Shown piece by piece: positions 2,705 to 28,037 of a DNA stretch of 35,369 nucleotides. Location: assembly GCA_022784065.1 (NCBI GenBank), contig JALFUO010000087.1:1-35369 (forward strand), given 5' to 3'. Position 1 is the stretch's first letter, and each line of letters opens with the position of its first letter. Under the pieces are notes generated by a model. That model did no database searches. It worked only from the letters and a program-made list of their open reading frames with translations, and had not been told where the DNA came from. A program made the position numbers and the translations under genes. The stretch is from Bacteroidales bacterium (GTDB lineage Bacteria > Bacteroidota > Bacteroidia > Bacteroidales > Bacteroidaceae).

Positions 2705-3244
2705 ATGTTCGACTTCCACACTCACCGCCTTGATGCTCCTGTGGGCGAAGCCATTATTTGCCTGCCCGCCGAAGTGCTGCGCCGTCCCGACGCTTTCGAG
2801 CCGCGCGAGGGTGCGCTCTATGCCGCCGGCGTGCACCCTTGGGCCACGGTCGACGAGGCTGATGCCCGCGTGCAGTTGCAAGGCCTGCCGTGCCTTTTGG
2901 CGCATCCGCAGGTGGTGATGCTTGGTGAATGTGGCTTGGATAGGCTGCGCGGCGGTGCCGAGGCGTTCCAGATAGAAATCTTCGAGGCGCAGATAGCCTT
3001 GGCAGAGCGTTTCCGCCTGCCCGTCACGCTCCACGTTGTCCGCGCTTGGGACGCCCTGCTGCGGCTGCACCGGTCTTTGCGACCCACTACGCAGTGGACG
3101 GTACACGGTTTTCGCGGCAAGCCCGCCCTTGCCCGGCAATTGCTCGATGCTGGCATTGACCTTAGTTTCGGCGCGCGATACAATCCCGAAAGTTTTCTTC
3201 TTACCCCTCCCGAGCGGCGGCATCGAGAGAGCGATGCGCTCTAA
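2705..3244 (+). CDS. Short TatD-family metal-dependent hydrolase, C-terminally clipped
   Basis: The 179-residue protein keeps every metal-ligand motif of the TatD family in order: FDFHTHR at the N terminus, GECGLD, TLHVVRAWDALL, VHGFRGKP and ESDAL. TatD enzymes are TIM-barrel metal-dependent hydrolases, some with DNase activity. The start at 2705 is chosen because it puts FDFHTH at the N terminus; the frame is open further upstream only because it reads through the 8-bp repeat array. The protein stops two residues after the ESD that corresponds to the last catalytic Asp, whereas relatives usually continue for a further 30 residues or more. A second 8-bp repeat array begins directly after the stop. 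It may be a functional short form or a gene cut by the repeat. Confidence 0.8.
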   Translation: MFDFHTHRLDAPVGEAIICLPAEVLRRPDAFEPREGALYAAGVHPWATVDEADARVQLQGLPCLLAHPQVVMLGECGLDRLRGGAEAFQIEIFEAQIALAERFRLPVTLHVVRAWDALLRLHRSLRPTTQWTVHGFRGKPALARQLLDAGIDLSFGARYNPESFLLTPPERRHRESDAL

Positions 3245-22320: not shown

Positions 22321-23823
22321 TCATTTCTTAAAAAACCTTCCCACGACGGGCAGTTGCCGGAGCGGCAGGTCGTGGTAGACGATGTGGGCGGCGAAGAGCA
22401 CGACGCAGACTTCGTTGAATCCGAGTTGCAGCCAGGCGTTCGGGCAATAGGCCGCAAAGCCCTGCATCAGCGCGTAGAAGAAGGCGGCGAGCAGCACGTA
22501 CGCTGCCATGCTCTTCAGAGGATAGTCGATGGGGTAGTACTTGCGCCCCACGAGGTAGCTCGTGACCATTGCTGTGCCGTAGCCCGCCACGCCTGCCCAG
22601 GCGCAAGCCATGTAGCCGAAGCGCGGAATGCCCCACACGTTTACGCCGATAAGCACAAGGCAACCCAGTCCCGAGAACCATGCGCCCCAAATCGTGCGGT
22701 CGGTGAGTTTGTACCAAAAGGAAAGGTTGAAATAAATGCCCATCATGATTTCGGCGGCCATCACAACGGGCACCACTTTCAGTCCCGGCCAGTAGTCGCT
22801 GCCGATGAGGTGTTTCAGGATTTCCATGTTGCCCACAACCAGCAGGAAGGCGAGGAGGGTGAAGATGAGGAAGTATTTCATTGCCTTGGCGTAGGTGGCA
22901 CGGTTGTCCTTGTCGGCTTGCTTGCCGAACACAAAGGGTTCGTAGGCGTATCGGAAGGCTTGCGTGATCATCGCCATAATCATGGCAATCTTCACCGCCG
23001 CGCCGTAGATGCCGAGTTGCACCTTGCCGTCCTCGCCCGGCACGAGGTGGCGGAAGAGCATCTTGTCGGCCGTTTGGTTGAGAATGCCGGCGATGCCGAG
23101 GATCAGTATCGGCCAGGCGTAGGAGAGCATGCGGCGCAGCAGCCGCGTGTCGAGGCGGTAGCGGAAGCCTGTCAGTTCGCGGCGGAAGAAGAAGGTGACC
23201 AGCACCGTGCAGAACAAGTTGATGCCGAAGGCGTAGCCCACGCCGACGGCGGGGTCGTAGAATTTTGCCACAATCTCTCCCGTGGCGGGCAGGGCGTAGA
23301 GCGCGGGCAGCAGTAGGAAGAAGATGAGGTTGAGGCTGATGTTGAGCACGATGAAGAGCAGTTTCAGCGCGGCAAACTTTATCGGCTTCTTCTGATAGCG
23401 CAGATAGGCGAAGGGTATGCACTGGAAAGCGTCGATTGCCACGCACACGGCCATCATGCCGAGGTATTCGGGGTGGTCGGCATAGCCCAGCGCGGCGGCT
23501 ATCTGCGGCAGCAGCCCGAGCACGGCTGCAACAAACGTCAGCCCCACGCCGCCCACGGCGATGAGCGTCGTGGCATAGACGCGCATGGGGTCTTCCTCGG
23601 TTTTGTTTACAAAGCGGAAGAAGGTGGTCTCCATGCCGAAGGTGAGCAGCACGAGCAGCAAGGCCACGTAGCTGTACACTTCCGTTATCACGCCGTAGCC
23701 GCCCGTCGAGGCCGCCAGCGCGGTGGTGTAGAGCGGCACGAGCAAATAGTTGAGGAAGCGCCCGATAATGCTGCTAAGCCCGTAGATGGCCGTATCTTTT
23801 ACTAAGGAAGAGAGTGAAGTCAT
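22321..23823 (-). CDS. Polysaccharide/lipid-linked glycan flippase, Wzx-like
   Basis: The 500-residue polytopic membrane protein has about fourteen hydrophobic segments. The start (LVKDTAIYGLSSIIGRFLNYLLVPLYT) and the phrase FGMETTFFRFVNK are typical of the Bacteroidota polysaccharide biosynthesis/oligosaccharide flippase family of the MOP superfamily. It would move a lipid-linked glycan across the inner membrane. It is a different subgroup from the flippase at 8974-10416. I recall it as a housekeeping gene often near ruvB in Bacteroidales, as here. Upstream lies the large inverted structured region 23861-24242, whose left half could be in its transcript leader. Confidence 0.87.
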   Translation of the reverse strand: MTSLSSLVKDTAIYGLSSIIGRFLNYLLVPLYTTALAASTGGYGVITEVYSYVALLLVLLTFGMETTFFRFVNKTEEDPMRVYATTLIAVGGVGLTFVAAVLGLLPQIAAALGYADHPEYLGMMAVCVAIDAFQCIPFAYLRYQKKPIKFAALKLLFIVLNISLNLIFFLLLPALYALPATGEIVAKFYDPAVGVGYAFGINLFCTVLVTFFFRRELTGFRYRLDTRLLRRMLSYAWPILILGIAGILNQTADKMLFRHLVPGEDGKVQLGIYGAAVKIAMIMAMITQAFRYAYEPFVFGKQADKDNRATYAKAMKYFLIFTLLAFLLVVGNMEILKHLIGSDYWPGLKVVPVVMAAEIMMGIYFNLSFWYKLTDRTIWGAWFSGLGCLVLIGVNVWGIPRFGYMACAWAGVAGYGTAMVTSYLVGRKYYPIDYPLKSMAAYVLLAAFFYALMQGFAAYCPNAWLQLGFNEVCVVLFAAHIVYHDLPLRQLPVVGRFFKK

Positions 23824-23860: not shown

Positions 23861-24242
23861 ATTTTAGACAAAAACCATAAAAACCGCTTGCATCGTTTGA
23901 AGCCCAAGGGCACGCCGCTGGGCTTAATGCCGAGCCTGTGAGCCTAATCGGCTCACGCTGGCCCTTAATCCCTGCAGCTGCGGTCGGTTCCCGCCCGCTT
24001 CAAACGCCGCAAGCAAAAAACAGGAAAAAGTGGACGATTGCTTTTTACTGTAAATAGTAAGGACGAAATGCTTTACTTTTTTCTGTTTTTTGGTTGTCCT
24101 GTGGGGCGGGCGGGAACCGACCGCAGCCTTAGCAGATTAAGCACTAGACGAAAGTCGACAGACTTTTAGGCTGGGGCTTAATCGGATAAGGCAGGCGATA
24201 GCCCACACAGGACAAGCGGTTTTGATTGTTTTTGTCAAAATG
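23861..24242. repeat. Pair of inverted, structured elements with differing but paired stems
   Basis: Two homologous units, 23861-24031 and 24075-24242, face each other in inverted orientation. They share outer flanks (GGTTTTxATxGTTTTTGTC), a conserved core (23977-23996, matched in reverse at 24108-24127) and inner flanks (CTGTTTTTTG-like). Each unit can close a long stem: 23886-23903 with 23997-24014 on the left, 24094-24107 with 24201-24215 on the right. The stem sequences are different but remain paired. Inner hairpins include GTGAGCC/GGCTCAC on the left and GAC-GAAA-GTC on the right. No protein is encoded. It fills the 424-base gap between the flippase and the SpmA/B-like gene. Confidence 0.85.
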
Positions 24243-24247
24243 ACCCA

Positions 24248-25477
24248 TTAGAAAAACAGATATGCGATAAACACTGCGGCTATCATGCCCGCGAGGTCGG
24301 CCGCAAGGCCGCAGCCCACGGCATGGCGCGTGCGGCTCACGCCCACCGAACCGAAGTAAACGGCAAGGATATAGAACGTCGTGTCGGTGCTGCCTTGGAA
24401 GATGCAGCTAAGCCGCCCCGCAAAGCTGTCTGCGCCGAAGGTCTGCATCGCATCGACCATCATGCCCCGCGCTCCGCTGCCGCTGAGCGGCTTCATCAGG
24501 GCAGTAGGCAGTGCGCCCACCCACTCGGCATCGCTCCCCGTGCTTCTCACCAGCGCGGCGATGCCTTCTATCGCCCAGTCCATTGCGCCCGAAGCGCGGA
24601 ACACGCCGATGCTCACCAATATGGCAACGAGGTAGGGAATGATGCGCACGGCAGTCTCAAAACCGCCTTTGGCTCCCTCGATAAACGCATCGTAAACGTT
24701 CACCTTTTTCCTGATGCCCGCCACTATGAAGCAGATGATGATGAAAAATAGCAGCACGTTGGCGGTCGTAGTGCCCACGGTGTTCATCGCCGCCGCGTCC
24801 ATTTTGCTGAACAGCCACAGCAGGCCGCCGACTCCCGCCGACAGGCCGCCGAGCGTGAGCAGCAGCACGGGCGAGAGGAGGTTGATGCGCTGCACCAGCC
24901 CCGTGACGACGATGCCGCAGAGAGTGCTGAAAAACGTGGCGAGCAATATGGGGAGGAATATGTCGGTGGGCTGCGCCGCGCCCATCTGAGCGCGATACAC
25001 CATGATACTCACGGGAATGATGGTCAGCCCGCTTGTGTTGAGCACAAGGAACATAATCATCGAGTTAGAGGCAGTGTCTTTCTTCGTATTCAGTTCTTGC
25101 AGACCCTCCATTGCTTTCAGGCCGAGCGGCGTGGCGGCATTGTCGAGACCGAGCATATTGGCGGAGAGGTTCATAAAGATGTTGCCGATGACGGGGTGGT
25201 TGCGCGGAATTTCGGGAAACAATTTCGCAAACACGGGGCCCAGTACCCGCGCGAGGGCATTCACCACGCCGCCGCGCTCCCCGATTTTCATGATGCCCAT
25301 CCATAGCGAAAGCACGCCCGTAAGCCCGAGCGAAATCTCAAACGCCGTTTTGGCGGATTCGAACGTAGAGTTGATGACTGCGGGAAACACGTCGTAGTCG
25401 CCCATAAACAGCAGGCGCACGCAGGCAATGGCGAACGCCGCAAGGAAAAAGAAGATCCAGATATAATTGAGTACCAT
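24248..25477 (-). CDS. SpmA/SpmB-type nucleoside-recognition (Gate) membrane protein
   Basis: The protein of 409 residues begins at MVLNYIWIFFFLAAF, chosen because it opens directly with the first membrane helix; an in-frame ATG 21 codons upstream would add a non-typical polar tail. It consists of two related halves, the first like spore maturation protein A (FEISLGLTGVLSLWMGIMKIGERGG, then NMLGLDNAATPLGLKAM) and the second like SpmB (GGFETAVRIIPYLVAILVSIGVFRASG, then GARGMMVDAMQTFGADSFAG). Both belong to the Gate/nucleoside-recognition superfamily. In non-sporulating Bacteroidota the fused form is common and its substrate is unknown. A possible -7 box lies at 25560-25567. The gene is divergent from ruvB. 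Confidence 0.88.
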   Translation of the reverse strand: MVLNYIWIFFFLAAFAIACVRLLFMGDYDVFPAVINSTFESAKTAFEISLGLTGVLSLWMGIMKIGERGGVVNALARVLGPVFAKLFPEIPRNHPVIGNIFMNLSANMLGLDNAATPLGLKAMEGLQELNTKKDTASNSMIMFLVLNTSGLTIIPVSIMVYRAQMGAAQPTDIFLPILLATFFSTLCGIVVTGLVQRINLLSPVLLLTLGGLSAGVGGLLWLFSKMDAAAMNTVGTTTANVLLFFIIICFIVAGIRKKVNVYDAFIEGAKGGFETAVRIIPYLVAILVSIGVFRASGAMDWAIEGIAALVRSTGSDAEWVGALPTALMKPLSGSGARGMMVDAMQTFGADSFAGRLSCIFQGSTDTTFYILAVYFGSVGVSRTRHAVGCGLAADLAGMIAAVFIAYLFF

Positions 25478-25559
25478 ATTATATATAATGTGTATCGGGC
25501 AGGGTCGTATCGCGCTGTTCTGCCAAATGATCATTAACAAAATGGGCTTTATAATCGTG

Positions 25560-28013: not shown

Positions 28014-28037
28014 GTAGGGGCGTTTTGCAAAACGCCC
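28014..28037. repeat. GTAGGGGCG family palindrome
   Basis: GTAG precedes the perfect 20-bp palindrome GGGCGTTTTGCAAAACGCCC at 28018-28037. It is the cleanest copy of the family in the window and lies 13 bases upstream of the LOG-family start. Degenerate 8-bp units (GTAAACAA) of the other repeat family follow at 28041-28060. Confidence 0.85.

Follow-up and report, generated by a model that had tools for sequence, protein, structure and literature searches.

A gene-less intergenic element with folded inverted ends in a Bacteroidales genome, and related units beside GxxExxY nuclease genes

The window analysed here, a stretch of 35,369 nucleotides, is contig JALFUO010000087.1 (positions 1 to 35,369, forward strand) of GenBank assembly GCA_022784065.1, from a Bacteroidales bacterium of the Bacteroidaceae. 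Between a gene for a Gate-domain protein and one for a polysaccharide flippase-type protein lies an element of 370 bp that carries no gene, has terminal inverted repeats and is crossed by no open frame. It is composed of two units, designated L and R, that face outward from a short centre, each bordered by an inner and an outer tail (Table 1). On balance, the element probably belongs to a class of mobile elements whose ends, each folded as a single strand, would be recognised by a Cas4/RecB-like nuclease of their own, and short copies would be moved in trans.

Table 1. Features of the short element and of the neighbouring genes in the window.
Feature	Position	Strand	Basis or remark
Whole short element (L unit, centre and R unit, including outer tails)	23867-24236	.	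Colinearity with long copy L154; pair repeated at 28 intact short loci
L-unit outer tail, outward strand GGTTTTTATGGTTTTTGTC	23867-23885	-	89% inverted match to right tail; kept across copies; similar motif beside nuclease genes of some relatives
L-type folded unit, structured on outward (-) strand	23886-24014	-	Folding and covariation; outward strand more stable in 27/27 copies
L closing stem, one side (partner 23997-24014)	23886-23903	-	89% pairing
L-unit inner tail	24015-24031	.	Inverted arm, kept across copies; matches inner edge of long copy
Centre of short element	24032-24074	.	Alignment with long copy; edges match both inner edges of the nuclease-gene-bearing copy
R-unit inner tail	24075-24092	.	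Inverted arm, kept across copies; alignment with long copy
R-type folded unit, structured on outward (+) strand	24093-24217	+	Folding and covariation; outward strand more stable in 26/27 (RNA) and 27/27 (DNA parameters)
R-unit outer tail GGTTTTGATTGTTTTTGTC	24218-24236	+	Inverted arm; kept across copies
Upstream gene, Gate-domain (nucleoside recognition) protein	24248-25540	-	Stop codon 11 bp from element
Downstream gene, polysaccharide flippase-type protein	22321-23823	-	Listed open reading frame and protein identification

Three pairs of inverted arms relate the two units. The outer arms (23863-23890 and 24213-24240) share 89% identity over 28 nt, the core arms (23977-23998 and 24106-24127) are identical over 22 nt, and the inner arms (24010-24031 and 24075-24096) share 91% over 22 nt. 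An earlier note, made from the sequence alone, had described two reverse-complement homologous units with an identical 20-bp core and with closing stems that each pair within their own unit. These features are all confirmed, the L stem pairing at 89% and the R stem (24094-24106 with 24203-24215) at 92%. However, the GNRA hairpin GAC-GAAA-GTC proposed in the same note is absent from the predicted structure, in which GAAAGTC pairs with the following GACTTT(T/C). Folding z-scores of the outward strands are -5.60 for the right unit and -3.60 for the left, and in neither case did any of 200 dinucleotide shuffles fold as well. Beyond a long arm, the closing stem bears small side hairpins, so that the fold is multi-branched and has the form of a four-way junction, most clearly in the relatives described below. 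The final side hairpin of the window family is short, with 2 pairs in the L consensus and none in the R consensus. The earlier note recognised no RNA family, and a search of the window against Rfam likewise returned no match at gathering scores. Sub-threshold Rfam matches, mostly to microRNA models across the long palindrome, were judged spurious.

The right unit gave 91 blastn matches in its own genome. Comparison of loci with both window units and searches with a covariance model of each unit resulted in a tally of approximately 44 loci: 28 intact short pairs, one long copy, and 15 others that are single units, are cut by a contig end or are interrupted by other repeats. Every intact pair, like the long copy, contains one R-type and one L-type unit that face outward, and from this constant composition the pair is apparently propagated whole, without random assembly of its units. 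There are two subfamilies, with tails starting GAC or GAT and with centres of different length. Hairpins of intact copies range from 122 to 140 nt, and whole apical blocks vary from copy to copy. Several copies are broken by other repeats and deletions, and an open frame through the element was found in none of the 27 checked.

Further features were seen in individual copies. In the second subfamily (L022-L033), about 25 highly variable centre bases lie between fairly conserved TTGATG and CATTG. L156 and L020 are single-unit copies in which the inner and outer tails of the missing unit are fused, which looks like loss by recombination between T-rich tails. Short outer motifs like GTTGGTTGAA/TTCAACCAAC occur in part of the copies, and in part (flanks of L009-L047) an extra short inverted motif, GTTGGTTGAATTA / TTCAACCAAC, lies beyond the tails. 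A second repeat, GTAGGGGCGTTTTGCAAAACGCCC (window 28014-28037), looks like a repetitive extragenic palindromic (REP) doublet forming a hairpin (REPIN), that is, a GTAG-tagged palindrome doublet. In element copies it is usually paired with an inverted copy ending CCCCTAC, and in L038, L041, L043, L044 and L046 it is nested, replacing part of a unit.

Pairing-keeping changes on both sides of a pair were counted over 27 copies of each unit, against 500 shuffles and against partners slid by 1-3 columns. In the R unit such changes affect 16 of 43 pairs and 70 cells (shuffle means 6.5 and 17.0), and in the L unit 14 of 43 pairs and 44 cells (4.0 and 10.9). None of the four counts was reached by any shuffle and the pair counts exceed those with slid partners, so that the compensatory change suggested by the earlier note from the window alone is now evident across the family. 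One-sided intermediates are few, and hairpin-templated correction may therefore contribute to the covariation. Copying of one stem arm onto the other by template switching could in principle produce all compensatory changes without selection on structure; the 70 both-sided cells of the R unit, the few one-sided ones and the differing apical blocks are as it would predict. It leaves unexplained the recurrence of the four-way-junction shape in dissimilar sequences and an excess of G-A over C-T mismatches on one strand (see below), and is considered improbable.

The long copy (L154, contig C80), found with the covariance models, has R-like and L-like units approximately 670 bp apart. A single open reading frame (ORF) of more than 100 aa lies between them (181 aa as listed, 158 aa from the chosen ATG), other mechanically called ORFs being 64-99 aa. 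Its product is a GxxExxY protein (TIGR04256; E 1.2e-23, 83.7 bits against a cut-off of 35) that also matches PDDEXK_3 (PF13366; E 7.3e-24, 84.8 bits against a cut-off of 22), and by residues and fold it belongs to the PD-(D/E)XK superfamily. Alignment of the window element with this copy gives two blocks in the same order, at 78% over 185 columns and 71% over 174, and 610 bp that include the ORF are replaced by 21 bp in the window. Because of this two-block colinearity the short element is best read as an internal-deletion derivative; that is, the window copy reads as a gene-less derivative, resembling a miniature inverted-repeat transposable element (MITE), of a nuclease-bearing element.

Insertion at the window site was assessed from 29 congener loci, with gaps estimated from tblastn ends. 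The Gate-domain and flippase genes lie on one strand in 18 of these, separated by 3-173 bp in 17 and by 1124 bp in one; in the window the gap is 424 bp, with the element between. In the remaining loci, the genes are on opposite strands in one and the flippase gene was not found within the stretch in ten. The comparison supports insertion of the element between genes that are close together in most of the congeners examined. This apparent insertion, the approximately 44 loci and the longer nuclease-bearing copy favour the foldback mobile element that was one candidate of the earlier note, but another, a dedicated leader for the flippase gene, is unlikely because the same element occupies many other sites. 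A paired small-RNA locus, the third, stays a candidate. The element might instead be a domesticated intergenic structure, such as a bidirectional terminator or mRNA-processing site, kept for regulation and mobile only in the past. The resemblance of a hairpin and T-tract to terminators, the absence of an open frame through any of the 27 checked copies and the position of the window copy between two codirectional genes would suit such a role. However, at the single site compared the congeners do not have the element, and other repeats and deletions have broken several copies, unlike a maintained regulatory site, making domestication a minor candidate with little chance of being correct.

Relatives of the long-copy protein were sought across 84,980 species, with one genome per species and a prefilter of two peptide patterns. 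The best 80 of the 127 found were kept (L188-L267); the titles of 79 name Bacteroidetes groups, Sodaliphilus being counted among these, and one names a Lachnospiraceae. An inverted repeat spans the gene in 43 of the 75 relatives with enough flank, against 3 for windows placed further from the gene in these loci. A strict motif for the outward tail was detected downstream in 25, upstream in 24 and on both sides in 17 of 74 relatives (controls 0/59 and 0/59), and on the wrong strand downstream in 5 of 74. Units adjoining these tails fold unaided with three inner branches on the closing stem in 35 of 43 cases, and z is below -3 in 35 of 43 (mean -5.2, 40 shuffles each). A strict, tail-independent scan for cloverleaf folds covered 74 relatives, of which 44 were positive downstream and 47 upstream; 31 had the fold on both sides and 60 on at least one, the control values being 7/61 downstream, 4/61 upstream and 0/61 for both sides; its criterion was set after a looser one had failed and was modelled on shapes already seen. 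Many genes of this nuclease subfamily in other Bacteroidales, gut and rumen bacteria among them, are flanked by same-shaped units, each with a closing stem that carries small side hairpins and one long arm, and by T-rich tails, with little sequence shared; this architecture is regarded as supported. Within the genus, a GxxExxY gene was detected in 23 of 58 genomes (22 above the cut-off), and one congener (L178) encodes a protein 51% identical to that of the long copy between units that fold alike from dissimilar sequence. In another genome, copies L198 and L201 are identical through the element but have visibly different flanks, consistent with recent copying, or conversion, of the whole element.

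Other arrangements were noted at the relatives' loci. Orthologous flanks (L219 and L235; L193/L195 and L249) hold the nuclease element in opposite orientation with messy junctions, a hint that the element was inverted or that it inserted independently at one site. In other subfamilies, GxxExxY genes (L161, L166, L172, L177, L183 and L185) are flanked by inverted copies of short motifs, several with a period of about 10 nt, e.g. CACGAATTTCACGAATCTACACGAA, and mobility may extend to more of the family.

Xylanibacter brevis ATCC 19188, with 18 matches to its own unit, holds both gene-bearing and gene-less copies. At L282, L283, L286 and L287 of X. brevis, inverted pairs of L-type and R-type units without a nuclease gene between them were recognised by eye. 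The presence of both copy types would allow a direct test of the mobile-element idea. Several X. brevis copies have CCCTTGT / ACAAGGG outside the tails. At L252 of X. brevis (2930-3200), the nuclease gene and the downstream unit enclose a nested unit of another, smaller kind that has tails of its own; the closely related L254 locus lacks it.

Which strand is structured was examined by counting single mismatches inside stems with a rule that treats both strands alike. On the outward strand of 42 units from the relatives, G-U exceeds A-C by 28 to 11 (p = 0.009) and G-A exceeds C-T by 48 to 2. The corresponding counts, which are not independent as the copies are related, are 7 to 3 and 40 to 0 for R copies, and 7 to 0 and 38 to 1 for L copies. 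The outward strand is also the more stable one, in 40/42 relatives, 26/27 R and 27/27 L copies with RNA parameters and in 41/42, 27/27 and 27/27 with DNA parameters. As a double-stranded cruciform would show no bias, one strand of each unit seems to work single-stranded, and we infer that it does so as single-stranded DNA (ssDNA) or RNA. Covariation, an architecture common to species without common sequence, and strand asymmetry together support constraint on the folded strand.

Outward transcription of the units as structured RNAs with a U-rich 3' tail, DNA folding playing no part, would account for several of these features. The nuclease, or a ribonucleoprotein made with such RNAs, would then act in mobility or regulation. 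The structured strand is the outward one, a T-rich tail follows the closing stem, the downstream unit and the ORF of the long copy have the same sense, and in the relatives G-U makes up 7.2% of pairs outward versus 3.7% inward. In the window family, however, the G-U share is low (R 1.5% outward and 2.3% inward; L 1.9% and 1.3%) and in R is higher inward, two divergent promoters would be needed around the 43-nt centre, and the window units have no Rfam family. G-T is a tolerated mismatch in DNA too, so the G-U asymmetry does not decide between RNA and DNA. This RNA reading is considered somewhat unlikely.

In the favoured reading, that of folded ends recognised by the element's own nuclease, the folded strand would most likely be a DNA strand with its 3' end at the element terminus, a position that suits end processing, and a Cas4/RecB-like fold would suit ssDNA. 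The GxxExxY nuclease, which we infer to be the mover, would recognise the folded ends and nick or process them. Host replication or repair would complete the move, leaving no constant target duplication, and gene-less short copies would be moved in trans. In the window the copy comes between two neighbouring genes, whose co-expression it may alter as a by-product. That these elements form an undescribed Bacteroidales class with shape-conserved cloverleaf ends, in which the GxxExxY nuclease serves as mobility enzyme without a known transposase or recombinase and gene-less pairs spread in trans to intergenic sites by the dozen, is proposed tentatively.

A number of observations weigh against this reading. 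The evidence for mobility is sequence comparison, with no movement seen. Target-site duplications, which the earlier note had named as support for a mobile element, were looked for in 29 copies and none of constant length was found. Nor was a base-exact empty site found, congeners being at most 76% identical over full-length flanking-gene matches and two X. brevis comparisons not being clean. Among the relatives, the inverted repeat is absent in 32 of 75, the strict tail motif is lacking on a given side in 49-50 of 74, and the strict cloverleaf is on neither side in 14 of 74; the looser cloverleaf criterion gave no discrimination (controls 49/61 and 42/61). The scan was positive almost as frequently on the inward strands of these flanks (42/74 and 36/74), as palindromes would lead one to expect, and the evidence on strand rests on the mismatch and stability tests instead. 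A piece tried beside the nuclease gene of congener L187 folded weakly. The window sequence family was found in its own genome only among the candidates scored per genome: either unit's model matched 1 of 58 genus genomes, its own (59 candidates scored per genome), and the R model 1 of 399 family genomes (8 candidates scored per genome under stricter filters, a weak absence). The scarcity of one-sided stem intermediates would also fit hairpin-templated correction, and the strand bias fits RNA as well as ssDNA. Finally, to our knowledge a PD-(D/E)XK nuclease alone is not known to carry out strand transfer, and an unlinked enzyme could be the mover.

The last point would make this a terminal-inverted-repeat element of the usual kind, or a MITE, mobilised by a transposase not linked to it, with hairpins and nuclease gene as passengers. 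Inverted ends, short gene-less copies and intergenic sites are as in MITEs, and some copies have the outer motifs resembling GTTGGTTGAA/TTCAACCAAC. Several findings make this unlikely: the constant target duplication is missing in the 29 copies, the nuclease is the only ORF above 100 aa between the long-copy units, and a passenger role would leave unexplained the recurrence of one nuclease subfamily between such ends in many species. The genome's only match to a Y1 transposase (L093:1387-1956; other transposase families were not searched) adjoins a different repeat family, and the window units match that locus over 10-18 nt, which is chance level. Judged from the listed ORF, the Y1 match looks shortened or frameshifted, and the repeats on its two sides, 117-190 bp long, belong to a family of their own.

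The long-copy protein is a member of the GxxExxY family (TIGR04256 / PF13366), for which the literature search found neither a published function nor a connection with paired folded ends; PMC8934634 is among the papers naming the family or its Pfam number. The association with cloverleaf ends would give one subfamily of this curated family, for which no function was found in print, a testable job. If the nuclease is the mover, a new enzyme class would be added to DNA mobility. The association would also account for at least some species-specific intergenic repeats of gut and rumen Bacteroidales. No account of this element type was found in the literature searched, outside which most subscription papers fall.

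Several known systems invite comparison. Integron attC sites have conserved structure with little sequence, and use strand choice. The element's ends likewise use a folded strand; unlike attC cassettes, they are paired outward units around a nuclease gene. According to the accessible part of one account, attC sites are folded DNA hairpins recognised by a recombinase (PMC11641012). REP/REPIN sequences with TnpA-REP, the REP-associated tyrosine transposase (RAYT), and IS200/IS605 elements are described, in the portions available, as having single-strand secondary structures recognised by a dedicated enzyme (PMC6006769, PMC8266576, PMC3733652). The element resembles both in being a palindromic high-copy repeat with a folded single strand. 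It differs from REP/REPIN in having units of approximately 125 nt instead of 20-40 bp and no GTAG/CGTC tag at the unit ends, and from both in that the linked enzyme is not HUH/Y1 and the structured strands are on opposite DNA strands at the two ends. No HUH/Y1 gene lies inside the element, the ORF between the long-copy units being PF13366. PINSR, a 188-bp repeat of Prevotella intermedia/nigrescens, is present in 177-184 copies, and the accessible part of its description gives its origin as unknown and reports it without terminal inverted repeats (PMC4755523). The likeness to PINSR, that of a lineage-specific, intergenic element, is by description only, the sequences not having been compared. 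The window element departs from MITEs in three ways: its ends are multi-branched folds specific to one strand, a target duplication of constant length was not found, and the linked gene encodes a PD-(D/E)XK protein, not a known transposase; because of the last two points the element is not filed as a MITE. In other respects it is MITE-like, being short, gene-less, intergenic and multi-copy, with inverted ends, and colinear with a longer gene-bearing copy.
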